64,000 bases of DNA from Herbidospora galbida (GTDB taxonomy: Bacteria > Actinomycetota > Actinomycetes > Streptosporangiales > Streptosporangiaceae). The stretch lies in assembly GCF_005233835.1 (NCBI RefSeq), contig NZ_SZQA01000001.1, positions 62,001 to 126,000 of the forward strand, read 5' to 3'. This document shows positions 46,474-63,677 of the stretch, piece by piece. The notes beneath the pieces were generated by a model, which worked only from the letters and a program-made list of their open reading frames with translations, ran no database searches and was not told the origin of the DNA. The stretch's first letter is position 1; each line of letters starts with the position of its first letter. Both the position numbers and the translations under genes were made by a program.

Positions 46474-47345
46474 CGCGGGCTCCTCCAGAGGGATCGAATC
46501 GCGGACGGCAGGCCGCCGCCCGTACGTTCGGAGGCCGCCCCGAGGCGCCCCCGGAAAATCTTCGAGATCCGGTCCACGGCGATGACGAGGATCACCACCG
46601 AGGCCATGAGCGTGGCCAGTTCCTGGTAGCGGAACAGGTGCAGGGCGATGCCGAGGGCCTGCCCGATGCCGCCCGCGCCGACGAAACCGATGACCACCGA
46701 GCTGCGGATGTTGCACTCCCACTGGTAGAGGATCTGGGAGGCGATCACCGCGCGGGCCTGCGGCACGATGCCGAGCAGGGCCGTCGTGGTCCGGGAGCCG
46801 CCGGTCAGCCGCATCGCCTCGACCGGGCCGGGGTCGACGGCCTCCAGTTGTTCGGAGCAGAGTTTGGCCAGCACGCCCGCCGAGTGCAGGGCGATGGCGT
46901 ACACCCCGGCCGCCGGGCCGAGCCCGACCGTGGCGACGAACAGCAGCGCCCACAGCAGTTCGTGCACGCTGCGCAGGGTGGTCGCAACGGTCCGGGCGCC
47001 CGCGGACAACCAGCGCGGCGCCTGCACGTTCCCGGCCATCAGCACCGCCAGCGGCAGGCCGATGAGCACGCCGATCACCAGCGCCGCGACCGAGATCTGC
47101 ACGGTCTCCACGGCCGCGGTCACGACCCGGCCGAGCAGGTCGGCGTCCAGGTCCGGTGGGAACAGCCCGCTGATGATCTGTACGGCGCCCTCCCGGCCCT
47201 CGATCAGGGAACCGAGACCGATCCCGGTCCCGACGACCGACCAGCCGATGACGCCCAGAGCGAGCAGCGCGACCACGACGCGGGGACCGCGACGGGGCCC
47301 GATCGGAGTCGGAGTGGTGCGCACGCGTTCCTGTTGGAGGGTCAT
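46470..47345 (-). CDS. ABC transporter permease, PhnE-like
   Basis: 291 residues with about six membrane helices. The EAA-type cytoplasmic loop is seen in EQLEAVDPGPVEAMRLTGGS, and the C-terminal block SSVVIGFVGAGGIGQALGIA is typical of phosphonate/phosphite (PhnE/PtxC) permeases. Overlaps by four bases with both the ATPase gene upstream and the DsrE gene downstream. With its partners it forms a complete importer. The substrate may be phosphonate-like or a selenium/sulfur oxyanion; context favours the latter, but this is inference. Confidence 0.88.
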   Translation of the reverse strand: MTLQQERVRTTPTPIGPRRGPRVVVALLALGVIGWSVVGTGIGLGSLIEGREGAVQIISGLFPPDLDADLLGRVVTAAVETVQISVAALVIGVLIGLPLAVLMAGNVQAPRWLSAGARTVATTLRSVHELLWALLFVATVGLGPAAGVYAIALHSAGVLAKLCSEQLEAVDPGPVEAMRLTGGSRTTTALLGIVPQARAVIASQILYQWECNIRSSVVIGFVGAGGIGQALGIALHLFRYQELATLMASVVILVIAVDRISKIFRGRLGAASERTGGGLPSAIRSLWRSPR

Positions 47346-48094
47346 GACATCGACTCCGCGGGTGTGCCGTAGATCCGCTCCAGCCGACCGGCGTCGGGCG
47401 GGTCGCCGTCGTGCACGACCTGCCCGTCGCGCAACGCGACGACGCGGTCGAAGCGGCGAGCCACATCCAGGTCGTGGGTGGTGGCGATCAGGGTGGCGCC
47501 GCTGCCGGTCAAATGGTCCAGGGCGACGGCCGCACGGACCGGGTCGAGACCGGAAGTGGACTCGTCGGCGAGCAGCAGGCCGGGCGCGGTGAACAGGGCA
47601 CGGGCCAACGCGACACGCTGCCTCTCCCCGCCGGAGAGGCGCTCGACGCGGGCGCGCAGCAGAGCGGTGATGTCGTGGATGGCGGCCAGTTCCGAAAGCC
47701 GCGCGGCGAACCGCGAAGGCACTCCGCCGGCCAGCACCACGGCCCAGTCGGTGGGCCGCCAGGCATGGGCGACCCCCGCGAGGATGTTGGTGCGGGCGGT
47801 GAGACCGACGATCAGGTCGTCGCGCTGGCGTACACACCCGATCCCGCGTCGGAGCCGGGTGACGTCGGCGCGACGCCCGAAGGGGTCGGCGCCATCGATG
47901 GAGACCTCGCCTTCGGCGGGGCGGACCGCGCCGATGATGACACGGAGCAGCGTGGTCTTGCCCGCTCCCGATGGACCGAGCAGCGCGACCCGCTCTCCCG
48001 GCCCGACCTTGAGATGCACACCGGACAGGACGGTGCGGCCGGCGAACGCCACTGTGACCCCGCCGACGTGCACCTCCATGGGCTGTCCCGTCAT
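47342..48094 (-). CDS. ABC transporter ATP-binding protein, PhnC-like
   Basis: 250 residues. Walker A (LLGPSGAGKTTLLRVIIGAV), Q-loop region (GCVRQRDDLIVGLTA), signature (VERLSGGERQRVALARALFT), Walker B (GLLLADESTSGLDP) and switch His (IATTHDLDVARRFD) are intact. Closest in style to the phosphonate ATPase PhnC. Overlaps by ATGA with the permease and binding-protein genes, so subunits are made in step. Confidence 0.9.
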   Translation of the reverse strand: MTGQPMEVHVGGVTVAFAGRTVLSGVHLKVGPGERVALLGPSGAGKTTLLRVIIGAVRPAEGEVSIDGADPFGRRADVTRLRRGIGCVRQRDDLIVGLTARTNILAGVAHAWRPTDWAVVLAGGVPSRFAARLSELAAIHDITALLRARVERLSGGERQRVALARALFTAPGLLLADESTSGLDPVRAAVALDHLTGSGATLIATTHDLDVARRFDRVVALRDGQVVHDGDPPDAGRLERIYGTPAESMS

Positions 48095-48996
48095 GGCTGG
48101 CCTTGCTTGGGGGTCAGCAGCCCGAGGGTCGCGGCCTGCGTGCGTACCTCGTCGTAGTCCGCCGCGGTCACGGGCGCGAACTTCTTGGCCCGCATCAGGT
48201 CGAGCAGTTGGGGCTGGTCGATCGCGAGGAAGGCGTCGGTGACGGCGGTGCGGGTCGCCTCCGGCAAGTTGGGATGGGCCACCCAGGGATAGCCCATGAC
48301 GTTGCGGGTCTCGACGACCCGCAGAGCGCCGGTGGGGACGCTCCCCTGTTTCTCCAGGCGGTGCAGGATGCGCAGTTCGATGCCTCCGGCCTCGACGTCG
48401 CCCTTGGCGACCGCCTGCGCGGTGGCGTCGTGCCCGCCGGTGAAGGTGACCGCCTTGAGCGGCGGGCAGGCCATCAGGTCGCCGGTGTCGCAGTGGGCGC
48501 CCGCCTCACTGATCATGATGCGGGGGTAGAGGCTGCCCGACGTCGAGCTGATGTCGCCGAAGGCGAACGCGCCGCCGCCGTCGACGACCTCCTTGGTCGT
48601 CTGGTACGCCGAGTCGGCCTTCACCACGATGGCTGAGAGGTATTCGGGCGTGCCGGTCTCCTGGTCGACCTCGGTGACCAGCGGCACGATCTTCGTCTGC
48701 GCCTCGGCCTGGACGTAGGTCAGCCCGCCGAGGTAGGCGACGTCGAGCCGCCCGGCCGTGAGCGCGGCGACCACTCCGGCGTAGTTGGTGGCCACGAACA
48801 GCTCGACGTCGGTGCCGAGCTTCCCGGCCAGGTAGGCGCGCAGGGGTTCGTACTGCGCGCGCTGCTTCTCAGGGGAAATGTTCGGCACCACGCCGACCCG
48901 CAACTTGCCTTGGCCGTGGCCCGCGTGGCCGCCGGATCCGCATCCGACGGCGGTGAGCAAGAGGACGGCGAACGCGGCGATCAGTCTCCGGGTCAT
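48091..48996 (-). CDS. PhnD-like substrate-binding lipoprotein
   Basis: 301 residues. Lipoprotein signal MTRRLIAAFAVLLLTAVGCG with the lipobox Cys at residue 19. The mature part matches PhnD-family binding proteins: LRVGVVPNISPEKQRAQYEP, LAGRLDVAYLGGLTYVQAEA, FAFGDISSTSGSLYPRIM and GGIELRILHRLEK. An extra internal Cys pair (HCDTGDLMACPPL) is unusual. It delivers the ligand to the PhnE/PhnC pair. ATGA overlaps on both sides. The ligand is unknown, and the Cys loop hints at a reactive or soft ligand. Confidence 0.88.
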   Translation of the reverse strand: MTRRLIAAFAVLLLTAVGCGSGGHAGHGQGKLRVGVVPNISPEKQRAQYEPLRAYLAGKLGTDVELFVATNYAGVVAALTAGRLDVAYLGGLTYVQAEAQTKIVPLVTEVDQETGTPEYLSAIVVKADSAYQTTKEVVDGGGAFAFGDISSTSGSLYPRIMISEAGAHCDTGDLMACPPLKAVTFTGGHDATAQAVAKGDVEAGGIELRILHRLEKQGSVPTGALRVVETRNVMGYPWVAHPNLPEATRTAVTDAFLAIDQPQLLDLMRAKKFAPVTAADYDEVRTQAATLGLLTPKQGQP

Positions 48997-50204
48997 CGCC
49001 CCTCACCACCGGGGATCACGAACGGCGCGACCGGGGCGAGTTCGACGCCGAGCGTGCTGGCGCCGATCAGCTCACGGCCGGTGCGGTTGTTGATGGGCAT
49101 GAACAGACCCGCCTGCACGTCCCGCCAGATGCGCTCATAAGCCGAGCCGCGCCGGTAGGCGGCGCCGCCGACGACGTCGATCAGCCGGGTCAGGACGGCC
49201 GCCGCGTTGTTGGTGCACACGTTCTTGACCAGCGCGCAGCGGGCCAGTCCTTCCTGTACGGGCAACTGGGAGACCAGCGCGCCGCTCATGACGTCTGCGG
49301 CGTGGCGCTGGAGCAGGGCCCTGCTGGTCTCGATGGCGATCTCGGCGTCGGCGACGGCGTCCTGGACGCGGGTGTCACGCTCCAGGCCGTTGCGGCGGGC
49401 GATGTCGACGGCGAAGTCGAGGGCGGCGACGGCCAGGCCGGTGTAGACCGCGCCGAAGCTGGGCGTGGTCCACGACAGGATCATGTCGAGCACCTGGACG
49501 TCGAAGTGGCCGACCGGGATCGACTGGAGCACGGCCATGTCGGGCACGAACATGCCCTCGAACACGATGTCGTCGCTGCGGGTGGCCCGCATGCCGAGCG
49601 TGTCCCAGGTCTGCTCGATCCGCACGCCGGGCATGGTCGGGTCGATCATCACGATCAGGACCTGCGGCCCGCCGGGGGCCTCGTCCCAGCGGGCGGTGGC
49701 GGCCCACATCGTGGCGATGGCGCTGTTGGTGCCGAAGATCTTGCGGCCGTGCAGATGGAAGCCGCCGTCGACCTTGGTGGCACGGGTCTTCGCGTCCATG
49801 AACAGGGCGGGGATGCCGGGTTCGCTGGCGATCGCGGCCAGCACCAGGCCGTCCTGGCCCGCGATCCGCAGGACCTGCTCCAGCGGGGGCGCACCGGTGC
49901 GCCGCCAGGTGTGCGCCCACGATCCGAGGGGGGCGGCGTGCATGGCGTACGACAGAGCGGTGGCGCCGTCGGCGGTGGCCAGGCGTTCCAAGACGCGCAG
50001 CAGTTCGCCCTGTCCCGCGCCGAGCCCGCCGAGTTCCTCGGGCACGGTGAGCCGGAGCAGGCCGCCCGCACGCAGGTCGTCGTAGTTGTCGGCGGGGAAG
50101 GTGTTGTCCCGGTCGTGGCGCGCCGCGCGTTCGCCGAGGGCCGGGAGGACCTTGTCGGCGAGGGCGAGGAACGACTGTTCGCGTTCCGTCAGGAGCTGAC
50201 GCAT
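48993..50204 (-). CDS. Acyl-CoA dehydrogenase-like flavoprotein
   Basis: 403 residues. N-terminal helices (RAGGLLRLTVPEELGGLGAG), the flavin strand segment (GRKIFGTNSAIATMWAATAR, FEGMFVPDMAVLQSI) and the C-terminal helical bundle ending VVGGAAYRRGSAYERIWRDV. The architecture is that of acyl-CoA dehydrogenases/DszC-like monooxygenases. The usual catalytic Glu is not obvious, so a flavin monooxygenase role of the sulfur-compound type is equally possible. It is coupled by ATGA to the phnD-like gene and may process what the transporter imports. Start chosen at MRQLLTERE. Confidence 0.82.
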   Translation of the reverse strand: MRQLLTEREQSFLALADKVLPALGERAARHDRDNTFPADNYDDLRAGGLLRLTVPEELGGLGAGQGELLRVLERLATADGATALSYAMHAAPLGSWAHTWRRTGAPPLEQVLRIAGQDGLVLAAIASEPGIPALFMDAKTRATKVDGGFHLHGRKIFGTNSAIATMWAATARWDEAPGGPQVLIVMIDPTMPGVRIEQTWDTLGMRATRSDDIVFEGMFVPDMAVLQSIPVGHFDVQVLDMILSWTTPSFGAVYTGLAVAALDFAVDIARRNGLERDTRVQDAVADAEIAIETSRALLQRHAADVMSGALVSQLPVQEGLARCALVKNVCTNNAAAVLTRLIDVVGGAAYRRGSAYERIWRDVQAGLFMPINNRTGRELIGASTLGVELAPVAPFVIPGGEGR

Positions 50205-50270
50205 GGGTGATATCTCCTCGAGACTCGATGAGATGGCCGGAAGCGACGGCGGGGGTGCCGCCACCCGGGG

Positions 50271-51584
50271 TCATGGACGGTTCGTGAGCGCGTCGTCGCT
50301 GACGTGCCGGGACAGCAGGAACAGAGCGGTGAGGCCGGACAGGACGGCCACCGCGGTCAGCGCCGTGGCCGCGGTGGTGAGGGCGCCGGGCCCCTGCTGG
50401 GCGATGCCGCCGATCACGGCGACGCCGAGCAGGGAGGCCGCCTGACGGGCGGTGTTGAGCACCCCTGATGCGGCGGGCACCAGGTCGGGGGCCAGCCGCC
50501 GGATGGCCTCGGTGCTGGCCGGAGCCATGACCAGCCCCACGCCCAGACCGGCCACCGCCAGCGCCGCCACGGCCGGACCCCACGTGGACAGCGCGAACCC
50601 GATCGCCCCGGCGCCGAGCGCGAGCATTCCGGCGGCCATGATCGGCCCGCCGCCGATCCGGTCGCTGAGCCACCCGGCGACCGGAGAGGCGAACCCCGCC
50701 GCCACCGCCATGGGCAGCAGCGCCAGCCCGGTGTCGATCGCGTCGCCGCCGAGCTCTCCCTGGACGCGTACGGAGACCAGGAGCATCAGGCCCGCGAGCA
50801 CGCCGAACTGGGCGGCGCCCACCCATCCGGCGACCAGGAAAGCGCGGTCGCGGAACACCTGGGGCGGCATCAGCGGCGCCCGGTGACCCCGTTGCCGCAG
50901 CGCGAAGACGGCGACGAGCACGGCGGCGGGCACGAGCCACAGCAGCCGCTCGGGGGTGAGCAGCGCGTAGGACGCGACAGCCAGTCCGGTGCCGATGAGG
51001 ACGACGCCACCCCAGTCCAGCTCACCCCCGGAGGCCGTGGCACCCGGTGGCAGCCGGCGCAGGGCCAGCACCACGGCGGCCAGGCAGAGAGGCACGTTGA
51101 TCAGGAAGACCCACCGCCAGCCCCAGGTCGTGACGATCAAGCCGCCGCCGACAGGCCCGAGCACGGCTGCCAGGGCCATCGTGGCGCTGACCAGGCCGAG
51201 CGCGGTGCCACGTCTTTCCGCAGGGAAGACGGCAGCGATCAGGGTGAGCGTCTGTGGCACGATCATCGCCCCGCCGACGCCCTGCGCCACCCGGGCGGCG
51301 ACCAGCTGCGGCAGCGCCGTCGCCAGCCCGCCGGCCAGAGACGCCAGGGCGAACACGACCAGGCCCGCGACCAGCAGGCGGCGCGGACCGTGCACCCCGC
51401 CGAGTCGCCCGGCGGTGATGAGGAGGGCGGCGTAGGCGATGACGAACCCGTTGAAGACCCACAGCACGTCGTCGAGCCCGGCGCCGAAGGAGACGGTCAG
51501 AGCGGGGACCATCACCTGGACGACGGTGGAGTCGATCATCACGACGAAGGCGGAGAGACAGAGAACGGCGACCGCACTGAACAT
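50271..51584 (-). CDS. MFS transporter, DHA2 family
   Basis: 437 residues with about 14 helices. ITAGRLGGVHGPRRLLVAGL is motif A; ATMALAAVLGPVGGGLIVTT is the antiporter motif C. The start at MFSAVAV has GGGAG six bases upstream; an upstream in-frame ATG lies inside a palindrome. The gene is first in a likely unit with the ACAD-PhnD-PhnC-PhnE-DsrE run (66-bp gap) and has the shared 18-bp operator 37 bp upstream. One Cys near the start uses the TGT codon. Likely an efflux protein. Confidence 0.86.
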   Translation of the reverse strand: MFSAVAVLCLSAFVVMIDSTVVQVMVPALTVSFGAGLDDVLWVFNGFVIAYAALLITAGRLGGVHGPRRLLVAGLVVFALASLAGGLATALPQLVAARVAQGVGGAMIVPQTLTLIAAVFPAERRGTALGLVSATMALAAVLGPVGGGLIVTTWGWRWVFLINVPLCLAAVVLALRRLPPGATASGGELDWGGVVLIGTGLAVASYALLTPERLLWLVPAAVLVAVFALRQRGHRAPLMPPQVFRDRAFLVAGWVGAAQFGVLAGLMLLVSVRVQGELGGDAIDTGLALLPMAVAAGFASPVAGWLSDRIGGGPIMAAGMLALGAGAIGFALSTWGPAVAALAVAGLGVGLVMAPASTEAIRRLAPDLVPAASGVLNTARQAASLLGVAVIGGIAQQGPGALTTAATALTAVAVLSGLTALFLLSRHVSDDALTNRP

Positions 51585-51600
51585 GCGCACTCCCGGAAGC

Positions 51601-51620
51601 ATTCAAAACATTCTTTGAAT
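51601..51620. promoter_or_regulatory. Palindrome beside operator b
   Basis: ATTCAAA-ACATTC-TTTGAAT, perfect 7-bp arms, between the MFS start and the shared operator. It overlaps the -10 region, so it could be a second regulator's site. Confidence 0.5.
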
Positions 51621-51638
51621 ACTTTAGAATTATATAGT
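51621..51638. promoter_or_regulatory. Shared 18-bp operator, site b
   Basis: ACTTTAGAATTATATAGT. On the minus strand the -35-like ATGACT overlaps its edge, and TCAAAG lies 17 bp downstream as the -10 candidate. It covers the end of the ABC1-kinase gene. Confidence 0.7.
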
Positions 51639-52880
51639 CATATTCTCTGGGGCTCCCGGCGCTGTCAAGGCCCCCGTAAGGAGGCCTTGCATTACGTAGG
51701 GAGCCGCCTCGATCTGGAAATCCATCAGCGGATGAAGCCGCCGTACCGTTCCTTCCAGGGCCAGCAGGCACAGCAGCGGGAACACGAATTCGGGTTCGGC
51801 GAAAACGGCGTGGCCGCGCTGCAGGTCGAAGAGCCGGACCGCGAACGGCCCCAGCTCGAAGTCCTGCGCGACCGCCCCGGAACTGCGATTCACCAGGTCG
51901 GCGACCTCGCGCTGGAACCCGGCCACGTCGGCGCCCTCGGCCACGCCGCGCGCGCTGGCCAGCAGAATGCGCGCGCAGAACTCGCCATCACCTTTGATCA
52001 TGCCGCCGAAGAATCGCGTGAAGCTGGTCCGCGCCATTTCACTGAGCGGGAACATGAATCCGGCGTCGAGGATGACGACCTCGCCGCCGGGACGGATGTA
52101 GGCGTTTCCCTGATGCAGGTCGACGTGAATGAATCCGCGCACGAACAGCATGTGATAAACCGTGCGAACCAGCGTCGTCACGCCGCGTTCCGTCGATTCG
52201 GGGTCGCCGGGCTCCTTGGTCAGCCCTTCGGCGAACGTCATCGTGATGACGCCGCCGGCGGTCAGTTCGTCGACGGGCTCGGGGACGACCACGCCGTCCA
52301 CGTCCGCGAGGTCGGCGCGCAGCCGATGGAGGTAGCGCGTCTCCTGCGCGAAGTCGAGCTGGCCGCGCAGCGCCTCACCCAACTGGCCGACGATGTCGGT
52401 CATCGGCAGCCTGGCCAGGCGGGGAACACGCGCGGCGAGCCGGGCGAAGCCCGAGACGATCGCGGTGTCGGCGGCGAAGCGGCGGATCACGTCCGGCCGC
52501 CTGACCTTGACCGCGAGGTCACGGCCCTGCCACGTCATCCGGTAGACGCACGCGATCGACCCGCTGGCGATGGGCGGCCGGGCCAGGGCCGCGAGCATCT
52601 CCGGCGGCGGGTCCGCGAAGGCCTGCCGGGCGGCGAGCAGGGCGTGCCTCGACGGCATCGGCGCCACGCTGTCGTGCAGGCGGCCCAGTTCGGCCGCCAA
52701 GGTCTCCCCCACGACGTCGACCCGGGTGGCCAGCAGTTGGCCCGCCTTGAGAAAGGCGCCGCCGAGCCGTTCGAGCAGCCGGGCGACCTCGGCGGCCCTG
52801 GCCGGCCGTCGCCAGGCGACCAGGGCCAGCCCGATCAGCACGTGGAAGCCCACCTGGACGAGGCGGATGGCGACCGTCAT
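51630..52880 (-). CDS. ABC1/UbiB-family atypical kinase
   Basis: 416 residues. The UbiB signature is visible: KAGQLLATRVDVVGETLAAE, the Ala-rich nucleotide loop IASGSIACVYRM, AVKVRRPDVIRRFAADTAIV, the catalytic HVDLHQGNAYIRPGGE and the metal site VILDAGFMFPL. A basic, partly hydrophobic N-terminus (LVQVGFHVLIGLALVAW) may anchor it. ABC1 kinases/ATPases act in quinone and lipid metabolism. It is coupled by ATGA to the LolA-fold gene. Why it sits in this region is unclear. Confidence 0.88.
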   Translation of the reverse strand: MTVAIRLVQVGFHVLIGLALVAWRRPARAAEVARLLERLGGAFLKAGQLLATRVDVVGETLAAELGRLHDSVAPMPSRHALLAARQAFADPPPEMLAALARPPIASGSIACVYRMTWQGRDLAVKVRRPDVIRRFAADTAIVSGFARLAARVPRLARLPMTDIVGQLGEALRGQLDFAQETRYLHRLRADLADVDGVVVPEPVDELTAGGVITMTFAEGLTKEPGDPESTERGVTTLVRTVYHMLFVRGFIHVDLHQGNAYIRPGGEVVILDAGFMFPLSEMARTSFTRFFGGMIKGDGEFCARILLASARGVAEGADVAGFQREVADLVNRSSGAVAQDFELGPFAVRLFDLQRGHAVFAEPEFVFPLLCLLALEGTVRRLHPLMDFQIEAAPYVMQGLLTGALTAPGAPENMTI

Positions 52881-53593
52881 CGCCGCGCCTCCGCCCCGGC
52901 CAGGGCGTTCTCGACCGCCTCACGCAGTGTTTCGGGGCTGTCGTCGAAGTCCTCGCAGGCCAGCGGCACGGCCGGGCCACTCCGCGTGAAATCGGTCCAG
53001 TGGCCGCTGTCGAGCCGCGACACCCGGACACGGCGGGGCAGCCAGTCCTCAGCCTGCCCGCCCAGCTCCAGGGCCTCCCACCGGCGGATCGGCTCCCCGC
53101 GCTGCTCCACGACCCGGTCGACGACCACGCCGGTGCCGGGCACGGAGCACTCCCGCACCACCAGGGCGTCCAGTCGGGCCGGGCCTCGGTAGACGCGGGT
53201 GCCCGTGCCCGGCTCTCCGGCGCCGGAGAGCTGAAGCACGGGATGCGGCCACGCCATCAGGTCGACGTAGCCGATGTCGGTGAGGGGCAGGCAGTCGAAC
53301 GCCAGCCGGTCGACGACTTGGATGGGCCTGCGCATGGTCGGCAGGTAGGTGCTGATCCGGCACTCGCCGGCGTCACGCTCCTCCTCCATCCAGACGTAGG
53401 TGCCGAACAGCACATCGGGTTTGATCACGAAGATCGCGGTCACCGCGCGTTCCGGGGAGGCGGAGAAGCGGCGCGCGAACAGGTACCGCATCGGGTTGTT
53501 GCCGATGGCGGCCTCGACACCGAAGGCATAGGACGCGAGCCGGCCCGCGCGGAAATTCGCCCGAGCCGGCCCGGCAACACGCACGTCATCCAT
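52877..53593 (-). CDS. Outer-membrane-lipoprotein-sorting-like (LolA-fold) protein
   Basis: 238 residues without an obvious signal peptide. The segment FVIKPDVLFGTYVWMEEERD, CRISTYLPTMRRPIQVVDRL and FDCLPLTDIGYVDLMAW resembles the LolA-fold lipoprotein-sorting-like family also found in bacteria without outer membranes. Overlaps the kinase start by ATGA; upstream neighbour ends 12 bp away. It probably binds a lipid or quinone, with the ABC1 kinase as partner; inference only. Confidence 0.7.
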   Translation of the reverse strand: MDDVRVAGPARANFRAGRLASYAFGVEAAIGNNPMRYLFARRFSASPERAVTAIFVIKPDVLFGTYVWMEEERDAGECRISTYLPTMRRPIQVVDRLAFDCLPLTDIGYVDLMAWPHPVLQLSGAGEPGTGTRVYRGPARLDALVVRECSVPGTGVVVDRVVEQRGEPIRRWEALELGGQAEDWLPRRVRVSRLDSGHWTDFTRSGPAVPLACEDFDDSPETLREAVENALAGAEARR

Positions 53594-53605
53594 CGCTAGG
53601 GGTGC

Positions 53606-54337
53606 CTACGCCAGCAGTCGTGCCAGCTCGGCGGGGATCACCGCGCTGGCGATCGGGACGTGGTGCAGGAGGTTCCCGATCTCGATGTCGGCGGCCAGGA
53701 GCTCACCGACCTGACGGCCTTCGCTGTCGTACAGCGCGTAGTGCTTGTTCGTTCGCGACACGTCCCCGATCGGGGGGACCATCGCGACCCGCGACTCCAG
53801 ACGGACCACCTGGTCGCCCGTGTCGACGGTCGTGCCGAGCTGCTCTACCTCGAACCGAGGATAGATCATGGTGATACAGTCCTTGATGGGCATCGGTGTC
53901 CCATCGTCCGGGGTCGGACTCGGCTTGACCCGCGCCCCTTCCGACTTGCCAGGCGTGTTCGAGACCTTGACCTGGCCGAAGAGCTCGCTGTGCCCCGTCA
54001 CCTGAAGCGACAGGAACTGGGCCGTGATCGTGGCGCTGGCCCAGTTCAGCTCGCCGGCGGCGTGCGGGTCGTGGCGACGGTAGATCGCCATGCCGTGGAG
54101 GTCGACGATGTCCTCACCGAGACCGTCGATGCGCACGTGGATGCGCTCGCGGACGATGAACGTCTCCAGAGCCGACGGCGTCAGCGTGTAAGGGCGGATG
54201 GGGTAGAGGTTCCCCGGCCCTCCCCACGCGGAGTCGTGGCCCCGGACGACCTCCGCCGGAGAGAGGGTCGCGGGGTCGATGTCCGCCGCGACACCCCTCT
54301 CCAGGAGTTGTCTGAGGATTCCCTGTGGTTCGCTCAC
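53606..54337 (-). CDS. Conserved hypothetical protein (DUF6073-like)
   Basis: 243 residues, soluble, beta-rich: VRERIHVRIDGLGEDIVDLH, LNWASATITAQFLSLQVTGH and SRTNKHYALYDSEGRQVGEL. I recall a DUF6073 family of this type, with no known function. One Cys in KDCITMIYPRFEVEQLG is encoded by TGT, of interest because the local tRNA-Sec has an ACA anticodon; nothing else marks it as a selenoprotein. Second gene of the unit starting at 54831. Confidence 0.6.
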   Translation of the reverse strand: MSEPQGILRQLLERGVAADIDPATLSPAEVVRGHDSAWGGPGNLYPIRPYTLTPSALETFIVRERIHVRIDGLGEDIVDLHGMAIYRRHDPHAAGELNWASATITAQFLSLQVTGHSELFGQVKVSNTPGKSEGARVKPSPTPDDGTPMPIKDCITMIYPRFEVEQLGTTVDTGDQVVRLESRVAMVPPIGDVSRTNKHYALYDSEGRQVGELLAADIEIGNLLHHVPIASAVIPAELARLLA

Positions 54338-54387
54338 AGTTCAACCTTTCGAGTGAGAGCGATGATGAGTGCCCTGCGCCGCCCTCG

Positions 54388-54831
54388 TCAGTTGTCGAGA
54401 GAGGCCATCAGGGCGTCGAGCGAATCGATGACGTGCGCGAAGTCCACGGTCCGCTCGCGGAGGCGGGTCTTGTCGACCGTCTGGTCGCCAAGCTCGACCG
54501 CGAGCACCTCGATCAGCCGATCGAGGTTGTTGTAAGCGACGCTCACCGGGAAGTGGGCCAGCGGCGTCTCGTGCCGGGGGTCGGCGGGCGGGCCGCCGGA
54601 CTCCAGCAGTCCCGTCGATCCGCTCTGCTCCCGCCAGGCCCGCTCCACCGTCACGTCGTACTGGTGGAAGGTCCCGTAGTAGTGCGGCTTCCAGCGTTCG
54701 CGGAGCTCGTTGGCGCTGATGCGCCGCTCGAGGTAGTCCACCGCGGCGGGGACGAACACCTCGCGGTACTGCTTGAGCAGAGGACCGACGTCCGGCGATG
54801 TCGTCGGCAGCGGACTGTCAGCGATGGTCAT
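54388..54831 (-). CDS. Hypothetical protein, first gene of unit under operator c
   Basis: 147 residues, no signal peptide or membrane helix. Landmarks: PLLKQYREVFVPAAVDYLER, RWKPHYYGTFHQYDVTVERA and LAHFPVSVAYNNLDRLIEVL. Acidic, helical, family not recognised. The ATG gives MTIADSPLP; a start four codons earlier is possible. Its promoter overlaps the shared 18-bp operator at 54884-54901, so it belongs to the same candidate regulon as selD/selA. Confidence 0.6.
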   Translation of the reverse strand: MTIADSPLPTTSPDVGPLLKQYREVFVPAAVDYLERRISANELRERWKPHYYGTFHQYDVTVERAWREQSGSTGLLESGGPPADPRHETPLAHFPVSVAYNNLDRLIEVLAVELGDQTVDKTRLRERTVDFAHVIDSLDALMASLDN

Positions 54832-54875
54832 GTCGTCTCCCAACCAGGGCTCGGTAGGTCTGAACGTCGATCCTC

Positions 54876-54904: not shown

Positions 54905-54995
54905 GCGTCGGATATGTCCGAGCGTTCCAAAGAACAAACCACCCTTTGAATAGCCTGTTCAGCGCGCCTACCAGCGGAAACCTTTGATGGCGCGG

Positions 54996-55025
54996 TTGAC
55001 GGCACGCGCTCCAATATCGTTAGTT
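54996..55025 (+). promoter_or_regulatory. Promoter of the tRNA-Sec gene
   Basis: TTGACG (54996-55001), 18 bp, TTAGTT (55020-55025), seven bases before the first base of the mature tRNA. Confidence 0.55.
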
Positions 55026-55032
55026 ACTTCAT

Positions 55033-55125
55033 GGAGGCGTTGGGTGCCTGGTGGCCCTCCCGGTCTACAAAACCGATGGGGCGGCGTTCGGCGTCGCCGG
55101 CGGGTTCGATTCCCGTTCGCCTCCG
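55033..55125 (+). tRNA. selC: tRNA-Sec (selC) with anticodon ACA
   Basis: A 93-base selenocysteine tRNA: an acceptor of 7 pairs plus a T-T eighth position (55033-55040 with 55117-55124), 6-bp D stem, 6-bp variable-arm stem (55080-55085 with 55093-55098) and 5-bp T stem, ending in discriminator G without encoded CCA. The anticodon loop (55065-55071) is CTACAAA, so the anticodon (55067-55069) is ACA instead of the TCA that reads UGA. It should pair with UGU. Imperfect pairs at 55045/55056, 55060/55076 and 55040/55117 leave decay possible. selB begins 46 bp later with no terminator between. Confidence 0.9.
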
Positions 55126-55170
55126 CTTTTCGCACCACCGCGGGATTCTTCAGGGTGAGGAGTGGCGCGC

Positions 55171-56928
55171 ATGCACGTAGTGGCGACCGCCGGTCACGTC
55201 GACCACGGCAAGTCGACCCTCGTCCGCGCCCTCACCGGAATGGAGCCCGACCGCTGGGCCGAGGAACGCCGGCGGGGCCTGACGATCGACCTGGGGTTCG
55301 CCTGGCGCACCATGCCCTCGGGACGCTCGCTCGCCTTCGTCGACGTTCCCGGCCACGAGCGGTTCGTGACCAACATGATGGCCGGGATCGGGCCGGTGCC
55401 CGCCGTACTCATCGTCGTCGCCGCCGACGAGGGGTGGATGCCCCAGTCGGCCGAGCACCTGGCCGTCATCGACGCGCTCGGCGTACACCACGGACTGCTG
55501 GTCGTCACCCGGTCAGACCGCGGCGACGCCGACCTGGCCATCGAGGAGGCCCGGCTGGAACTGGCCGAATCCTCCCTGGCCGACGTGCCGGCCGTGGCCG
55601 TCAGCAGCATCACCGGCGAGGGCATCGACGACCTGGTGACCGCCCTCGACGAGTTGGTGGCCTCGCTGCCCGCCCCCGACGACGCGGCGCCGGTCCGGTT
55701 GTGGATCGACCGCGCGTTCACCATCAAGGGCATGGGCACCGTCGTCACCGGCACCCTGCCCGCCGGGACCGTGAACGCCGGAGACGAACTCCAGCTCAGC
55801 CCGTCAGGACGGATCGTGAAGATCCGCGGCATGGAGTCGCTCAAGCGCAAGGTCGAGACGGTGACCGGCGTGGCCCGGGTCGCCCTCAACCTCAAAGGCG
55901 TCGACCTGGACGAGTGCCGGCGCGGGATGGCCCTGATCACCCCCGGCCGGTGGAGCGACACCGACACCCTCGACGTGCGGCTGCGGGCCGGGACCTCTGA
56001 CCTGCTCCCCCGCGAGTCGTTGCTGCACGTCGGCTCGGCGTCGGTGAGCGTCCGGATCCGCCGCCTGGGCGAGACGACCGCCCGGCTCACCCTCGAGCAT
56101 CCGTTGCCGATGCACGTCGGCGACCGGGTGATCCTCCGCGACCCGGGCTCGCGCCGGGTGACCGGCTTGACCGTGCTCGATGTCCGGCCGCCGCCTTTCC
56201 ACGGCCGGGGCGCGGCGGCCCGGGCGGCCGACGAACTGGCCGAGTGGCCCGACCCGCCGACCGCCCACCACCTGCTGGCCCGCCACCACTATCTGAAGGT
56301 GGCCGACTTCGGTCTCATGGGTCTCCCCCCGGTCGGCCGGACGGCCGACGGCGACTGGCGGGTGGACCTCGGTTGGCGGGTCAGCCAGTCTCAGCGCCTC
56401 AGCGCCCTCGCCAAGGACCACGCCCTGGCCAACCCCCTCGCTCCGACTCTTCCCGTCGAGGTGGCCCGGCAACTGCTCGGCCTCCCCGACCGGCGGCTCG
56501 TGGAGGCGCTGGTCCGGCCGCCGCTGCGGGTCGAGGGAGGGCGGATCCACCGGCCCGCCGACCGGCCCAAGCTCCCCGAGGCGATCGCCGCCGCCGTGCG
56601 TCGTCTGGAGCGGGAGCTGGAGTCGACGCCGTTCCAGGCGCCGGAGGCGGGCCGGCTCGCCCAGCTCGGGCTCGACTCACGGGCCGCCATCGCCGCGCAC
56701 AAGGTCGGGGCCGTCCTGCGGCTGGCCGAAGGCGTCGTACTCCCCCTGACGGCCGAGCCGCGAGCGGTGGAGATCCTCGGCGACCTGCCGCAGCCGTTCA
56801 CCGCGAGCGAGGCCCGCAGCGCCCTGGGCACCAGCCGTCGTGTGGTGATCCCCTTGCTGGAGTATCTGGACGAGCGGGGTCACACGATGCGGGTCGACAA
56901 CACGAGCCGGCGGATGCGCCCCAACTGA
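55171..56928 (+). CDS. selB: Selenocysteine-specific elongation factor SelB
   Basis: 585 residues. GTPase motifs: VVATAGHVDHGKSTLVRALT (G1), DVPGHERFVTNMMAGIGPVP (G3), and TRSD in place of NKxD (G4). Elongation-factor domains 2-3 follow (RAFTIKGMGTVVTGTLPAGT), and a winged-helix C-terminal half (LAEWPDPPTAHHLLARHHYL ... ALGTSRRVVIPLLEYLDERG) should bind the SECIS hairpin of selenoprotein mRNA. The ATG giving MHVVATAG is chosen; GAGGAG is well placed before it and a GTG three codons upstream is less likely. It probably shares a transcript with the tRNA-Sec gene. Confidence 0.93.
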   Translation: MHVVATAGHVDHGKSTLVRALTGMEPDRWAEERRRGLTIDLGFAWRTMPSGRSLAFVDVPGHERFVTNMMAGIGPVPAVLIVVAADEGWMPQSAEHLAVIDALGVHHGLLVVTRSDRGDADLAIEEARLELAESSLADVPAVAVSSITGEGIDDLVTALDELVASLPAPDDAAPVRLWIDRAFTIKGMGTVVTGTLPAGTVNAGDELQLSPSGRIVKIRGMESLKRKVETVTGVARVALNLKGVDLDECRRGMALITPGRWSDTDTLDVRLRAGTSDLLPRESLLHVGSASVSVRIRRLGETTARLTLEHPLPMHVGDRVILRDPGSRRVTGLTVLDVRPPPFHGRGAAARAADELAEWPDPPTAHHLLARHHYLKVADFGLMGLPPVGRTADGDWRVDLGWRVSQSQRLSALAKDHALANPLAPTLPVEVARQLLGLPDRRLVEALVRPPLRVEGGRIHRPADRPKLPEAIAAAVRRLERELESTPFQAPEAGRLAQLGLDSRAAIAAHKVGAVLRLAEGVVLPLTAEPRAVEILGDLPQPFTASEARSALGTSRRVVIPLLEYLDERGHTMRVDNTSRRMRPN

Positions 56929-59077: not shown

Positions 59078-60475
59078 TTACGGCAGCGCCGCCAGTAGCG
59101 CCTTCTCCAGAACGTCGTCCTCCTCGGGCGCCACGGTACGCAGGTCGACCAGTACCCGCCCCCGTTCGGCCCGCACGATCACCGGCGTCTCTCCGGCGCG
59201 CAGCGCCCCCATGACGGCCGACTCGCCCGACGGCCCGCAGCTGAGCTCGACCAGCACCGACGGAAGCCGCTCGACGGGCAGGCTGCCGCCGCCCACCATG
59301 CCCGCGCCGTCCCGGACCCGGGCCCGCCGCCCGATCGAGCGCGCCAGCCGGTCGGCCCGGCGGGTGAGCTCCTCGATCGGCGCGTCGAGCATGCGCCATA
59401 CGGGCAGCTCGCCGCGACGTCCGCCCAGATGGGACAACAACGTGGCTTCCAGAGCGGCCAGGGTGAGTTTGTCGATGCGCACGGCACGGGCGATCGGATG
59501 CCGGGACAGCCGCTGCACCATCGTCTCGTCGCCGACGACGATTCCGGCCTGGGGGCCGCCGAACAGCTTGTCGCCGGAGAAGACGGTCAGGTCGGCTCCC
59601 GCCGCCATGCTCTCCCGCAGCGTCGGCTCGTCGCCCAAATCGCCGGTGAGCAGGCCCGATCCCAAATCGTGCAGGAGCGGGAGGCCCGCCTCGCGTGCGG
59701 CGGCGACCAGGGCGGCCAGCGGCGGCGCGGCCGTGAAGCCCTCGATGCGGTAGTTCGACGGGTGCACCACGAGGATCATCGCGGTGCGGTCGGTGATGGC
59801 GTTGACGTAGTCGGCCAGGTGGGTGCGGTTGGTCGAGCCGACCTCGACGAGCCGCGCTCCGGCGGCCTCCATGATGGACGGGATGCGGAACTCGCCGCCG
59901 ATCTCCACCAGTTCGCCGCGCGAGACGATGACCTCCCGGTCGCGGGCGAAGGCGCCGAGCGCCAGGAAGAGCGCCGCGGCGGCGTTGTTGACCGCCAGGG
60001 CGCCGGGAGCGCCGCTCAGCTCGCGCAGCAGGGTGTTCACGGTGGCGCCGCGTTTGCCTCGGCCGCCGGTGGCCAGGTCGAACTCGACCGTGGAGTATCC
60101 GGCGGCGGCGTTGACGGCGGCCCGGGCCGCCTCCGACAAGGGGGCCCGGCCGAGGTTGGTGTGCAGGACGACGCCGGTGGCGTTGATGACGGACCTGACC
60201 CGGCCCGCGTCCAACGTGGCCAGCGCGTCGGCCACCTTGCCGGCGATCTCGTCGGGGGACGGCACGGTCCCGCCTCCGCCCACCGCACAGCGGGCCTCGT
60301 CGAGCACCCGGCGGACCTTCTCGGTCACCAGCGGGCGGCCCCATGTGGCTGCCAGCTCGCCCATCAGGGGCAGAGAGAGGACGGCGTCGGTCTTCGGCAG
60401 CGCGCGGCGGGGATCGGCGGGAGGAGTAGCTCGTGGCACTTCAACAGGTGCGGCCGGGCCGGAATCCATGATCAT
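59078..60475 (-). CDS. selA: L-seryl-tRNA(Sec) selenium transferase SelA
   Basis: 465 residues. The N-terminal domain carries RRALPKTDAVLSLP; the PLP core shows RSVINATGVVLHTNLGRAPL, YSTVEFDLATGGRGKRGA, ALAVNNAAAALFLALGA, GEFRIPSIMEAAGARLVEVG and the cofactor lysine in LTVFSGDKLFGGPQAGIVVG. It converts seryl-tRNA(Sec) to selenocysteinyl-tRNA(Sec) using selenophosphate. The ATG at 60475 has GAGGGG upstream and lies 10 bp after the selD stop. Its Cys in DEARCAV is a TGT codon. All key residues appear intact, which argues against decay of the pathway. Confidence 0.94.
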   Translation of the reverse strand: MIMDSGPAAPVEVPRATPPADPRRALPKTDAVLSLPLMGELAATWGRPLVTEKVRRVLDEARCAVGGGGTVPSPDEIAGKVADALATLDAGRVRSVINATGVVLHTNLGRAPLSEAARAAVNAAAGYSTVEFDLATGGRGKRGATVNTLLRELSGAPGALAVNNAAAALFLALGAFARDREVIVSRGELVEIGGEFRIPSIMEAAGARLVEVGSTNRTHLADYVNAITDRTAMILVVHPSNYRIEGFTAAPPLAALVAAAREAGLPLLHDLGSGLLTGDLGDEPTLRESMAAGADLTVFSGDKLFGGPQAGIVVGDETMVQRLSRHPIARAVRIDKLTLAALEATLLSHLGGRRGELPVWRMLDAPIEELTRRADRLARSIGRRARVRDGAGMVGGGSLPVERLPSVLVELSCGPSGESAVMGALRAGETPVIVRAERGRVLVDLRTVAPEEDDVLEKALLAALP

Positions 60476-60485
60476 CGTGATCCCC

Positions 60486-61547
60486 TCAAGCGCCCGCGTG
60501 GACGGAGATGTGACCGGGCCGTCCCGCGACCGCCTGGCCGATGACGGCCGTGGACCGGTCGTGTTCACGCAGGCGGTCGACCAGGCCGGCCGCCGACGGC
60601 GGCACAGCGAGCAGCAGGCCGCCCGACGTCTGCGCGTCGTGCAGCAGGATCGCGACCTCCTCGTCGACCGACACCGCGACGTCCACCCAGTCGGCCAGGA
60701 AGCTCATGTTCGCCTTGGTCCCGCCGGGCACGAAACCCTTGGCCGCCAGCTCACGCGCGTCGGGCAGCAGGGGCACGCGGTCGGCGTCGACTGTCGCGGC
60801 CAGGCCGCTGGCGCTGAGCATGCGCCGCAGGTGCCCAAGCAGCCCGAAACCGGTCACGTCGGTGGCTGCGAGCACTCCGGCGGCCACTGCGGCGCGGGCG
60901 GCGTTCGCGTTGAGCGTCGTCATCGAGGCGACGGCCTCGGCGAGGGTGGCGGGGTCGGCGGCGTCCTGTTTGAGGGCGGTGACGATGACGCCGGTGCCCA
61001 GTGGTTTGGTCAGCACGAGCAGGTCGCCGGGGCGCACCTTGTCGATCGTCATCAGGTGGTCGGGGTCGGCCAGGCCGATGACGGCCATGCCGTATTTCGG
61101 GACGGGGTCGGCGATGGTGTGGCCGCCGACCACGGCGCAGCCGCCCTCGGCGGCTTTGGTGGCGGCGCCGCGCATGACGTCGGCCAGTAGGTCGAGCGGC
61201 AGGCCGTCGCCCGGCCAGGCGGCCAGGTTGAGCGCGGCGACGGGGCGGCCGCCCATGGCGTACACGTCGGACAGGGCGTTGGCCGCGGCGACGCGGCCCC
61301 AGTCGTAGGGGTCGTCGAGGACGGGGGTGAAGAAGTCGGTGGTCAAGATGAGTGCCTGGCCGTCGCCCAGGCGCAGCACCGCTGCGTCGTCGCCTTCGGG
61401 CAGGCCCACCAGCAGGTCGTCGGCGGCTTGGGCGCCGAACCCGTTGAGGCTGGTCATGAGCGTTTCGAGTGACGCCTGCGGCAGTTTGCAGGCGCATCCG
61501 GCGCCGGGTGACAACGTGGTCAGTCGGACGGTGGTGTTTTCCCTCAT
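60486..61547 (-). CDS. selD: Selenide, water dikinase SelD
   Basis: 353 residues. The catalytic N-terminus is SPGAGCACKLPQ, with C18 and K21 at the positions of E. coli Cys17 and Lys20; the Cys form, codon TGC. Further landmarks: GDDAAVLRLGDGQALILTTD, ANALSDVYAMGGRPVAALNL, GGHTIADPVPKYGMAVIGLA and the C-terminal HDAQTSGGLLLAVPP. It makes selenophosphate from selenide and ATP. It is in one unit with selA downstream and follows the AhpD-like gene, from which a strong hairpin separates it. Confidence 0.94.
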   Translation of the reverse strand: MRENTTVRLTTLSPGAGCACKLPQASLETLMTSLNGFGAQAADDLLVGLPEGDDAAVLRLGDGQALILTTDFFTPVLDDPYDWGRVAAANALSDVYAMGGRPVAALNLAAWPGDGLPLDLLADVMRGAATKAAEGGCAVVGGHTIADPVPKYGMAVIGLADPDHLMTIDKVRPGDLLVLTKPLGTGVIVTALKQDAADPATLAEAVASMTTLNANAARAAVAAGVLAATDVTGFGLLGHLRRMLSASGLAATVDADRVPLLPDARELAAKGFVPGGTKANMSFLADWVDVAVSVDEEVAILLHDAQTSGGLLLAVPPSAAGLVDRLREHDRSTAVIGQAVAGRPGHISVHAGA

Positions 61548-61631: not shown

Positions 61632-62183
61632 TCAGTGGCCGGTGGCGCACATCCGGTAGCCGTCGTTGATGATCATCTGGGCCATGCCGGCGTAGGCTCG
61701 CGGGTCGTCGGGGACGATGGCCGCCAGCCCGTCGCAGTAGCGGTTGAACATGCAGAACGCCGCCGAGATGAGCACCGAGTCGTGGATCTCGGTGTCGGTG
61801 GCGCCGGCCTGCCGGGCCGCGTCGACCAGCTCGGCGGTGACGGCGTGGCCGCCTTCGACGGTCGCTCCGGCGATCTTGATCAGGGCGCGGAGCTTGGGCG
61901 AGATCGGGGCGCTGTCGACGTCGTCGAGGACCTTGTCGACCAGGGCCCTGCCGCCGTCGATCTGGGCGGCGCTGACCTCGGAATGGGTGGAGCTGCAGAA
62001 CTTGCAGTGGTTGAGCACCGACACGTAGGTCGCGATGAGCTCGCGGTCCCCACGCCCCAGCGAGTGGGGGCTGCGCAGCAGCGTCTCGGCGAGCTCGCCG
62101 AGGGGGCGCCCCGTCTCCGGACGGTACTGGAACAGACCGGGCGTGCCGGGGGCAAGCTCGGGGGACATGGCGATGTGCGGCAT
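61632..62183 (-). CDS. Carboxymuconolactone-decarboxylase/AhpD-like protein
   Basis: 183 residues. The AhpD active-site pattern is present: SVLNHCKFCSSTHSE with a CxxC and downstream His. A helical body follows (LVDAARQAGATDTEIHDSVL, AAFCMFNRYCDGLAAIVP). Such proteins reduce peroxides through the Cys pair; selenoprotein forms exist in other bacteria, but here both codons are TGC. It heads the unit leading to selD and selA and has the shared 18-bp operator in its promoter. Confidence 0.88.
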   Translation of the reverse strand: MPHIAMSPELAPGTPGLFQYRPETGRPLGELAETLLRSPHSLGRGDRELIATYVSVLNHCKFCSSTHSEVSAAQIDGGRALVDKVLDDVDSAPISPKLRALIKIAGATVEGGHAVTAELVDAARQAGATDTEIHDSVLISAAFCMFNRYCDGLAAIVPDDPRAYAGMAQMIINDGYRMCATGH

Positions 62184-62347: not shown

Positions 62348-63007
62348 TCATCCGATCGGCGACGCCATCAGCCCGAGCAGGACGCTGGAGCGCACGATGG
62401 CGTCGGTGTCGCCGACCAGCTGCAGCCTTCCGGAGGCCAGCGCCTCGAACGGGGTCAGCCGCTTGGCGCCTATTTCGACGAAGGTGCGCGCGTCGGTGCG
62501 GGCCACCACGGCGGGGTCCCCTTCGGCCGGGCCGTCGAGCGCGACCGGCTTGCCGTCGGTGACGGCGATGTGGAAGACCACGTCGTCGACGCGGAACTCG
62601 TAGGACTCGTCGATGTCGGTGGCCCGGTCGGGGTCGATCATCGCCTGTACCGCGAGGAAGCCCCAGTGGGCGCGGACCTCGACGTCGTCCGCCGGCGCGT
62701 CGATGAAGTGGAGGCCCCAGCGGGCCATCGAGAGCACCGGTTCGCGCAGCTCCCGGCCGAGGTCGGTCAGCGCGTAGCCCTGGTCGCGGGTCTGCGGGCG
62801 GGTGACGACCCCCAGTTCGTGAAGCACCTTGAGGCGCTCGGCGAGCAGGTTGGTGCCGATGCCGGGCAGTTCCTCCAGCAGCTCGCCGTAGCGGCGCGGG
62901 CCCAGCAGCAGTTCCCGGACGATGAGCAGCGTCCAGCGCTCTCCGATGACGTCGAGGGCCGCCGCCAGCCCGCAGTACTGGCCGTAGTTACGCCGGACGT
63001 GACCCAT
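62348..63007 (-). CDS. HxlR-type regulator with C-terminal SCP2-like domain
   Basis: 219 residues. The HxlR winged helix covers residues 10-110: YCGLAAALDVIGERWTLLIV, LGPRRYGELLEELPGIGTNL, LAERLKVLHELGVVTRPQTR. The second half (HIAVTDGKPVALDGPAEGDP, ARTFVEIGAKRLTPFEALAS, GRLQLVGD) looks like a sterol-carrier-type ligand-binding domain. A Cys at residue 12 sits where HxlR redox sensors carry theirs. It lies between two AhpD-like genes, and an operator-like site is in its own promoter; it is the best candidate to bind the shared motif. Confidence 0.85.
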   Translation of the reverse strand: MGHVRRNYGQYCGLAAALDVIGERWTLLIVRELLLGPRRYGELLEELPGIGTNLLAERLKVLHELGVVTRPQTRDQGYALTDLGRELREPVLSMARWGLHFIDAPADDVEVRAHWGFLAVQAMIDPDRATDIDESYEFRVDDVVFHIAVTDGKPVALDGPAEGDPAVVARTDARTFVEIGAKRLTPFEALASGRLQLVGDTDAIVRSSVLLGLMASPIG

Positions 63008-63032
63008 GGCAGCCTCCTTGCTTCGCCTGGTT

Positions 63033-63050
63033 ACTTTAATTATACATAGA
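63033..63050. promoter_or_regulatory. Shared 18-bp operator, site e (divergent)
   Basis: ACTTTAATTATACATAGA lies between the divergent HxlR-type and second AhpD-like genes, overlapped by ACATA-GAA-TATGT. It is the weakest match, but it is placed for autoregulation. Confidence 0.5.
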
Positions 63051-63086
63051 ATATGTAAGTTGTCCCGGCAACCCTGAGGAGCGCGC

Positions 63087-63677
63087 ATGACCCCCGGCTC
63101 TCCCGGCGTCAACGTCCCGATCGTTACCGAGGCCGCCGCCACCGGCGATGTCGCCGAACTCTACGGCGAGATCCGCGATCACTTCGGGCTCGGGCTGGTG
63201 CCCGACGTCTTCAAGCTCGTCAGCACTCGCTCACGATTTCTCAAGGTGTTCTGGGACGGCTACCGGTCGGTCTTCGACGAGGGAGAGCTGTCCCGCGACG
63301 TCAAGGAGCTCATCGCGGCGTTCGTGGCCCGGGAGGTCTCCTGCCACTACTGCGTCGACGCGCATACGCTCTTCCTCGACCTGCTGGGCGCCGACGCCGC
63401 GCTGAAGGCGAGCCTGTCGGTGGCGGAGGTGGAGCAGATGGATCTGCCCGAACCGGTGCGCGAGCTGCTGCGGCTGGCCAAGCGCATCACGGATGAGTCC
63501 CACCGCGTCACCGAAGCCGACTTCGCCAAGGCGCGCGCCTGCGGCTGGAGCGACGCGCAGATCCTGGAGGCGCTCTGGACGGCCTGCCAGTTCAACTGGG
63601 TGACCCGCATGGTGAGCGCAGCCGGCCTGGTTTCCCTGGGGCAGCTCGCCGAGTTCGAACCGGCTACAGGACGGTGA
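63087..63677 (+). CDS. Carboxymuconolactone-decarboxylase/AhpD-like peroxidase-related protein
   Basis: 196 residues. Active-site block FVAREVSCHYCVDAHTLFLD (CxxC plus His) in the middle, then RELLRLAKRITDESHRVTEA and ILEALWTACQFNWVTRMVSA. This is the peroxidase-related AhpD subgroup, usually about 190 residues. Both Cys codons are TGC. It is divergent from the HxlR-type gene; its 3' end overlaps the convergent Clp gene by 14 bp. Likely a thiol peroxidase linked to the regulator. Confidence 0.86.
   Translation: MTPGSPGVNVPIVTEAAATGDVAELYGEIRDHFGLGLVPDVFKLVSTRSRFLKVFWDGYRSVFDEGELSRDVKELIAAFVAREVSCHYCVDAHTLFLDLLGADAALKASLSVAEVEQMDLPEPVRELLRLAKRITDESHRVTEADFAKARACGWSDAQILEALWTACQFNWVTRMVSAAGLVSLGQLAEFEPATGR

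Follow-up and report, generated by a model that had tools for sequence, protein, structure and literature searches.

A selenocysteine tRNA with anticodon ACA and a hairpin-marked UGU codon point to a second, sense-codon selenocysteine cassette in Herbidospora galbida

The window analysed here, 64,000 nucleotides of a Herbidospora galbida contig (NZ_SZQA01000001.1, positions 62,001 to 126,000), contains a tRNA gene that resembles a selenocysteine (Sec) tRNA and lacks the usual anticodon UCA, raising the question of whether such a tRNA is in use and which codon, in which gene, it would read. The gene (55033-55126, plus strand) is the sole tRNA of the window in ARAGORN, which called it tRNA-Cys. 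It gave a full-length match to the Rfam tRNA-Sec model RF01852 (model positions 1-91) at 55033-55124 (plus strand), with 66.8 bits against a gathering cut-off of 47. The anticodon loop CTACAAA occupies 55065-55071, with ACA at 55067-55069 in place of UCA, which is typical of tRNA-Sec and not defining; tRNA-Sec species with non-UCA anticodons have been described (PMC7609411, PMC8124441). The selB gene follows after a gap of 37 nt, and the original prediction of a tRNA-Sec fold with anticodon ACA beside selB was thus confirmed.

Three sel genes accompany the tRNA. The selB gene (55162..56928, plus strand) encodes a Sec-specific elongation factor of the sense-codon type (TIGR00475, 304.5 bits, cut-off 242) with a winged-helix domain (PF09107). 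The selA gene (59078..60568, minus strand; TIGR00474, 491.7 bits) probably has its true start further downstream, since most relatives align from residue 52, and selD (60486..61547, minus strand; TIGR00476, 372.9 bits) encodes a Cys (TGC) at the usual Sec/Cys position. All three pass their NCBIfam cut-offs, in agreement with the earlier description of intact motifs in SelA, SelB and SelD. Two further genes, SDR-like and sigma-factor-like by eye, lie between selB and selA at 57081-58749 and were matched only in the window and in H. daliensis.

When genome contigs were scanned for sites that resemble tRNA-Sec and have ACA, CCA or GCA as anticodon, 81 stretches were obtained, and 80 of them (L029-L108) were examined. 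A tRNA-Sec(ACA) was found in four of them, from Herbidospora yilanensis, H. daliensis, Nonomuraea wenchangensis and Planomonospora parontospora; the remainder were tRNA-Cys(GCA) resembling selC*, tRNA-like matches without assignment, or coding sequence. Nitrospirota and Cloacimonadota records supplied the tRNA-Sec-like tRNA-Cys(GCA) genes (L032, L038, L052, L079 and others like them), which are probably selC* tRNA-Cys. The discriminator U73 given for selC* tRNA-Cys (PMC7609411) was not seen in the window tRNA, which has G at 55125, just past the acceptor stem.

In the family set the exact ACA pattern was present in 5/341 genomes. A free-anticodon pattern with up to two mismatches matched 130/341, and among the matches listed the anticodon was ACA in six genomes, ATA in one and, apart from a match in G195 that is probably due to chance, TCA in the rest. 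Class-wide, 49/394 genomes matched the tRNA-Sec pattern, and only the window's own was not TCA. Genomes G043, G039 and G188 were taken as H. yilanensis, H. daliensis and N. wenchangensis, respectively, the first two being congeneric with the window genome, and Planomonospora was counted apart from the family set. Besides the window's, the genomes with an ACA cassette are G039, G043, G165, G166, G188 and Planomonospora; G030 carries the AUA form.

The original prediction had noted one mismatched position each in the acceptor, D stem and anticodon stem. All three are present, but the odd pairs of the acceptor and D stem are common to the TCA tRNA-Sec genes of the same genome and two relatives. 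The C.A mismatch of the anticodon stem occurs only in ACA copies, with A.A in G166 and a U-A pair in G030. This mismatch, together with a complete TCA copy elsewhere in the genome, is what favours regarding the tRNA as a tRNA-Sec(UCA) copy that is in decay or was read wrongly. Such an origin is extremely improbable, as ACA recurs in 6/341 family genomes and in Planomonospora, across three genera and in a cloverleaf that is otherwise kept; SelA, SelB and SelD are open along their matched length wherever covered by the examined stretch, and the DUF6073 codon described below tracks the tRNA anticodon. A read error is excluded because the same ACA tRNA recurs in other genera. Judged by its sequence and its relatives, the tRNA-Sec(ACA) gene is real and neither decayed nor misread, and the conservation of ACA across genera and the covariation of codon and anticodon uphold the earlier preference for use over decay.

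A tRNA-Sec(TCA) also exists in the window's genome (8.3 Mb, 116 contigs), at C97:13809-13900; the one further match above the Rfam cut-off is a tRNA-Ser. A second selD, a selA and the N-terminal part of a selB were found on contig C100, and the C-terminal end of selB lies on C97 beside the TCA tRNA. The two sel sets are 51-58% identical across their matched parts. A normal tRNA-Sec(TCA) elsewhere had been named beforehand as evidence against a UGU-reading tRNA; such a gene is indeed present, but it is not decisive because it belongs to this separate selD-selA-selB set. An in-frame UGA in fdhA, named in the same way, was not seen: none of the seven Molybdopterin matches of the genome (PF00384, FdhA-type) has an internal stop.

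The second set has a candidate UGA client of its own within 3 kb of the TCA tRNA, a hydrophobic protein with the motif GFSLSGSV-UGA-SLNSA and a hairpin with loop GGUCU. The scan for UGA clients yields many chance frames, and only the frame recurring across genomes was taken. This client and its hairpin were found in five loci of five genomes (L009, L158, L159, L160 and L162). In L009 (C97, minus strand) the TGA is at 11124, in GFSLSGSV-U-SLNSADLLTS, with the GGUCU-loop hairpin 32 nt downstream. A related UGA gene, with loop GGUCC, is present in L160 and L163, and the part past the UGA gave no Pfam match in the three copies of the client that were tried.

A TCA tRNA-Sec was also found in 5/6 ACA genomes of the family set. 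The exception was N. wenchangensis (G188), in which none was detected at up to two mismatches and one SelB only was found, plus EF-like matches of 35-36%. Several variations on the UGA system were observed among the relatives. In H. yilanensis the selB of the TCA set is missing (L159, 10132-10202), with about 70 nt and no N between selA and tRNA-Sec(TCA); the only SelB found in this genome is that of the cassette (plus a 34% EF-like match), the UGA gene and its hairpin are kept, and the cassette SelB may serve both systems. G166 carries a SelB remnant with two in-frame TGA near its TCA tRNA-Sec (G166:C1:8525540-8525797) and another SelB at 944973. In G017 (L166, L167) there are two tRNA-Sec(TCA) genes, both with an adjacent selB; one of the two SelBs is closest kin to those of the sense-codon type, and no UGA client was recognised in its vicinity.

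The ACA tRNA lies within a conserved cluster of 17 genes (44710-63677), whose order in the window is kept in H. daliensis, H. yilanensis, G165 and N. wenchangensis. Gene order is altered in G166, with 16/17 cluster genes, and on the G030 contig, with 10/17 (PhnD partial); the 8 kb locus of Planomonospora covers 7/17. All eight cassette genomes are related, and the window differs hardly at all from H. daliensis. The left end of the cluster as examined is a PvdN-like PLP enzyme (44710..46065, plus strand; PF00266; NF051467 at 356 bits, under the cut-off of 650). It is followed on the minus strand by genes for a DsrE-like protein (46123..46488; PF02635), a PhnE-like permease (46470..47345; PF00528), a PhnC-like ABC ATPase (47342..48094), which was named from its reading frame and is present in cluster relatives including G166, and a PhnD-like substrate-binding protein (48091..48996; TIGR01098, 176 bits, over its cut-off). 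The last reached 151.7 bits with TIGR04553 (putative selenate binding), under the cut-off of 250. Further minus-strand genes encode an SfnB-like member of the acyl-CoA dehydrogenase family (48993..50264; profile match, conserved in the cluster), an MFS transporter (50271..51602; PF07690), found in six genomes and unmatched in G166 and G030, and a conserved ABC1-type atypical kinase (51630..52880; PF03109). Next come a conserved gene at 52877..53593 with no Pfam or NCBIfam family match, the DUF6073 gene, and an adjoining conserved gene at 54388..54843 that contains no Cys and gave no Pfam or NCBIfam match at E 0.01; the first and last of these three are present in 8/8 cassette genomes. To the right of the sel genes are an AhpD-like protein (61632..62183, minus strand; TIGR01926, 84.8 bits; PF02627), an HxlR-type regulator whose start is probably internal (62348..63142, minus strand; PF01638) and, at the right end as examined, a second AhpD-like protein (63087..63677, plus strand; TIGR01926, 92.1 bits). 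Any function of DUF6073 in redox chemistry or selenium handling, in the company of such genes, is conjecture.

In phylogenetic analysis the cassette SelBs, ACA and AUA together, group in a single clade (97/95), whose closest outgroups are the TCA-type SelBs of G017 and G136; within it, G030 (AUA) and G166 (ACA) are paired at 90/89, below the starred support level. In the SelA tree the ACA and AUA sequences all fall to one side of a 100/100 branch.

The best candidate for a gene read by this tRNA is the DUF6073 gene (53606..54337, minus strand; PF19550, 299 bits), a putative UGU-encoded selenoprotein with Sec or Cys at residue 154. Codon 154 (53876..53878, minus strand) is TGT, the gene's sole Cys codon; it is TGT in 7/8 cassette genomes and TAT in the AUA genome. 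Conserved Cys columns were defined as those covered in at least five genomes with at most one residue other than Cys, and codon 154 of DUF6073 is the only one of 35 such columns in the cluster that is never TGC in the eight cassette genomes. In the other cluster genes TGT makes up 25/249 Cys codons (six genomes). The remaining TGT codons tried as clients (PhnC-87, MFS-15, SelA-94 and HxlR-33) were rejected, since TGT is not kept in all relatives. The redox Cys codons of SelD, the DsrE-like protein (both codons of its CxxC) and the AhpD-like proteins are TGC in the window; SelD and AhpD-like proteins, which had been put forward as clients in the original prediction, are thereby set aside. As a separate observation, SelD of G166 (L143, 9234) and G030 (L145, 239) has TGT at the usual Sec/Cys position, which in G030 should be Cys because the tRNA there is AUA.

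Codon 154 is followed directly on its 3' side by ATCACCATGATCTATCCTCGGTTCGAGGTAGAG. G165, Planomonospora and all three Herbidospora copies share this sequence unaltered, and the N. wenchangensis copy carries a single change. The stretch contains codons that are locally rare (CCT, 6.8%; TAT, 10.8%; GTA, 3.1%). The region is predicted to fold into a SECIS-like hairpin (53844..53865, minus strand) of 8 bp with a bulged U (53861), the loop GGUUC and 19 nt from codon to loop. Bacterial SECIS elements, such as that of E. coli fdhF in the canonical UGA system, have a bulged U and a GGU-type apical loop about 16-37 nt from the codon, and the DUF6073 hairpin agrees with this rule in bulge, loop and distance; the bulge is C in G030. 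Standard pairs fill 97.5% of 40 cells in six cassette sequences (five distinct rows) and 62.5% of 40 cells at the same site in five TGC orthologues, H. daliensis and H. yilanensis being left out of these counts. The G166 hairpin has one mismatch. Stem variation is one-sided, with no pair changed on both sides, and shuffles do not separate it (500/500). In random synonymous recodings that preserved the peptide and drew on local codon usage, the motif arose in 166/20000 cases and a fold as stable in 293/20000, so that the hairpin alone is moderately unlikely by chance, which is suggestive and not proof. A covariance model of codon and hairpin found DUF6073 once per genome in five genomes, at E of about 1e-17 or better. 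No second client was found below E 0.2 in these genomes; because the model differs little from a sequence model and 150 candidates were scored per genome, clients with a different hairpin would be missed. A second stretch of DUF6073, codons 57-84, shows synonymous conservation about as strong as that at the hairpin.

The distribution of DUF6073 allowed the codon to be compared with the anticodon. Matches were found in 20 of 338 family genomes, 12 of them strong (71-100% identity); among 394 class genomes at E 1e-10 only the window's own genome matched, and plasmids gave one weak match (24.7%). The eight weak DUF6073-like matches (L135-L142, 22-26% identity) were omitted from the codon comparison; L138-L141 have Cys at the place of codon 154, in an uncertain alignment. 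The cassette is present in seven of the 12 strong matches, namely the six ACA genomes, with TGT, and G030 (AUA), with TAT. In G030 the tRNA-Sec(AUA), the DUF6073 gene with its TAT codon and the same hairpin lie on one contig of 27.9 kb, and binning cannot explain the pairing because tRNA and gene share that contig; the UAU case is this one contig of one genome, which is 83% complete. The five strong matches outside the cassette (G017, G246, G247, G009 and G267) all have TGC at codon 154 and no hairpin. In these genomes no tRNA-Sec was detected within 20 kb around the DUF6073 gene and no ACA or ATA tRNA-Sec by genome pattern search; TCA copies occur elsewhere in G017 and G009. With Planomonospora included, the pattern holds in 8/8 cassette genomes against 0/5 others (p = 1/1287 if the genomes were independent, but they are related). 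No TGA form of DUF6073 was seen among the matches. The series probably ran from a TCA ancestor to ACA and then to AUA, each step with a single base change in the tRNA and another in the codon.

These comparisons bear on whether TGT and hairpin coincide by chance, the tRNA reading another gene or none. For such a coincidence it can be said that the motif appears in 0.8% of synonymous codings, that DUF6073 is well conserved overall, and that the search for clients covered the cluster genes and used a single hairpin model close to the sequence itself. It is nevertheless highly unlikely given TGT in 7/7 ACA genomes, TAT in the AUA genome and TGC in 5/5 close orthologues without the cassette, and given that codon 154 is the sole such column of 35. 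The same counts bear on a variant of Sec insertion at UGU, in which A34, as encoded in the tRNA gene, is converted to inosine. Inosine can pair with U, C and A, and one tRNA (ICA) could then read UGU, UGC and, weakly, UGA; the consistent use of TGT, not TGC or TGA, in 7/7 ACA genomes and the preference of bacterial TadA for ACG anticodons make this variant unlikely.

We therefore favour, with a probability of roughly 0.92, the insertion of Sec at UGU codon 154 of DUF6073 by tRNA-Sec(ACA), and at the same level consider that the window holds a self-contained second Sec-insertion cassette, serving one SECIS-marked sense codon and co-resident with the UGA system. The features of a sense-codon tRNA-Sec can be read directly from the sequences: the tRNA and its anticodon, full selA, selB and selD with the tRNA here and in relatives, the in-frame TGT with its hairpin, their conservation, and the covariation of codon and anticodon with one switch of both. 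In the proposed mechanism, SelD would make selenophosphate, SerRS would charge tRNA(ACA) with Ser and the cassette SelA would convert Ser to Sec. The cassette SelB would then bring Sec-tRNA(ACA) to the ribosome while its winged-helix end holds the DUF6073 hairpin, and UGU 154 would be read as Sec in competition with Cys-tRNA(GCA); UGU codons without a hairpin would remain Cys. Charging, delivery, the Sec residue, the Sec:Cys share and the reading of unmarked UGU as Cys are modelled on the known bacterial Sec pathway. The earlier proposal that UGU is assigned to Sec is thus retained for one SECIS-marked codon in DUF6073, but not as a reassignment of UGU, because UGU occurs elsewhere in the cluster and no second strong hairpin match was found in five genomes.

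The tRNA borne by SelB might instead insert another amino acid at the marked codon, either Ser or, as a selC* tRNA-Cys, Cys. A Cys codon with a SelB-type carrier recalls the selC* tRNA-Cys (PMC7609411), and orthologues without the cassette have Cys at this place; however, the cassette keeps its own selA and selD, which neither Ser nor Cys insertion would need, and no special tRNA is needed for Cys at UGU, so that this alternative is very improbable. The likeness to selC* tRNA-Cys with SelB*, as described in PMC7609411, consists of a tRNA-Sec-like tRNA for a Cys codon and an additional SelB, whereas here selA and selD are present, and the base past the acceptor stem is G and not U. The cluster genes showed no special CysRS.

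Sec insertion at a Cys codon has precedents. In Aeromonas salmonicida UGU is read as Sec (PMC10778597, citing Mukai et al. 2016, Angew Chem 55:5337), and a tRNA with anticodon GCA reads UGC as Sec (PMC11415595); ten sense codons were recoded to Sec in Mukai et al. 2016, according to citing papers (PMC10778597, PMC8124441, PMC11415595). As reported in these papers, UGU-to-Sec recoding is itself already known. Those systems and the reading proposed here have in common an anticodon-changed tRNA-Sec, SelB, a SECIS and the reading of a Cys codon as Sec; the present case differs in the anticodon ACA, its occurrence in Actinomycetes, the co-resident TCA tRNA-Sec, the single neighbouring client and the UGU/UAU switch. 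With the canonical UGA selABCD system it shares SelA, SelB, SelD, the tRNA-Sec cloverleaf and a bulged-U hairpin with a GGU-type loop close behind the codon; unlike that system, a sense codon takes the place of a stop, and the competitor would be Cys-tRNA and not a release factor. Literature searches found nothing on Herbidospora with selenocysteine, on DUF6073 or on a second selB with a sense codon, and among the matches listed nothing of this kind for tRNA-Sec or selB in Streptosporangiaceae, Nonomuraea or Planomonospora; for UAU or a tyrosine codon with tRNA-Sec, the 'UAU codon' match among those listed concerned an engineered initiator tRNA. Relative to the literature found, the dual system, the DUF6073 client and the UGU/UAU switch appear new, although the 2016 survey may include UAU or these genera.

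The predicted structure of DUF6073 was not usable (pLDDT 31.8). Its sequence matches DynF (6ubl, E 2.6e-5), a dynemicin-pathway protein forming a dimeric eight-stranded barrel that binds palmitic acid, with residue 154 aligned with a DynF Cys; nothing on Sec appears in the passages of the DynF description covered here (PMC8725005).

Taken further, the cassette is quite likely a portable one with a private codon: UGA and hairpin-marked UGU would both mean Sec in one cell, and neither system would share its tRNA, SelA, SelB, SelD or client with the other. In one lineage, paired changes in tRNA and client would have shifted the codon from UGU to UAU. In N. wenchangensis, where neither a TCA tRNA-Sec nor a second SelB was found, Sec may be encoded by the sense codon alone. 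Routine annotation would overlook such a system, as the gene looks like that of an ordinary Cys protein and the tRNA is called tRNA-Cys. The locus would serve as a natural example of a codon and an anticodon changing in step, and as a ready-made sense-codon Sec cassette for code-expansion work. If the reading is true, DUF6073, an unstudied family, would be a selenoprotein, two selenocysteine codes would stand side by side in one cell, a sense codon would be privately re-read at one marked site with its meaning kept elsewhere, and such a private codon could drift from one codon to another.
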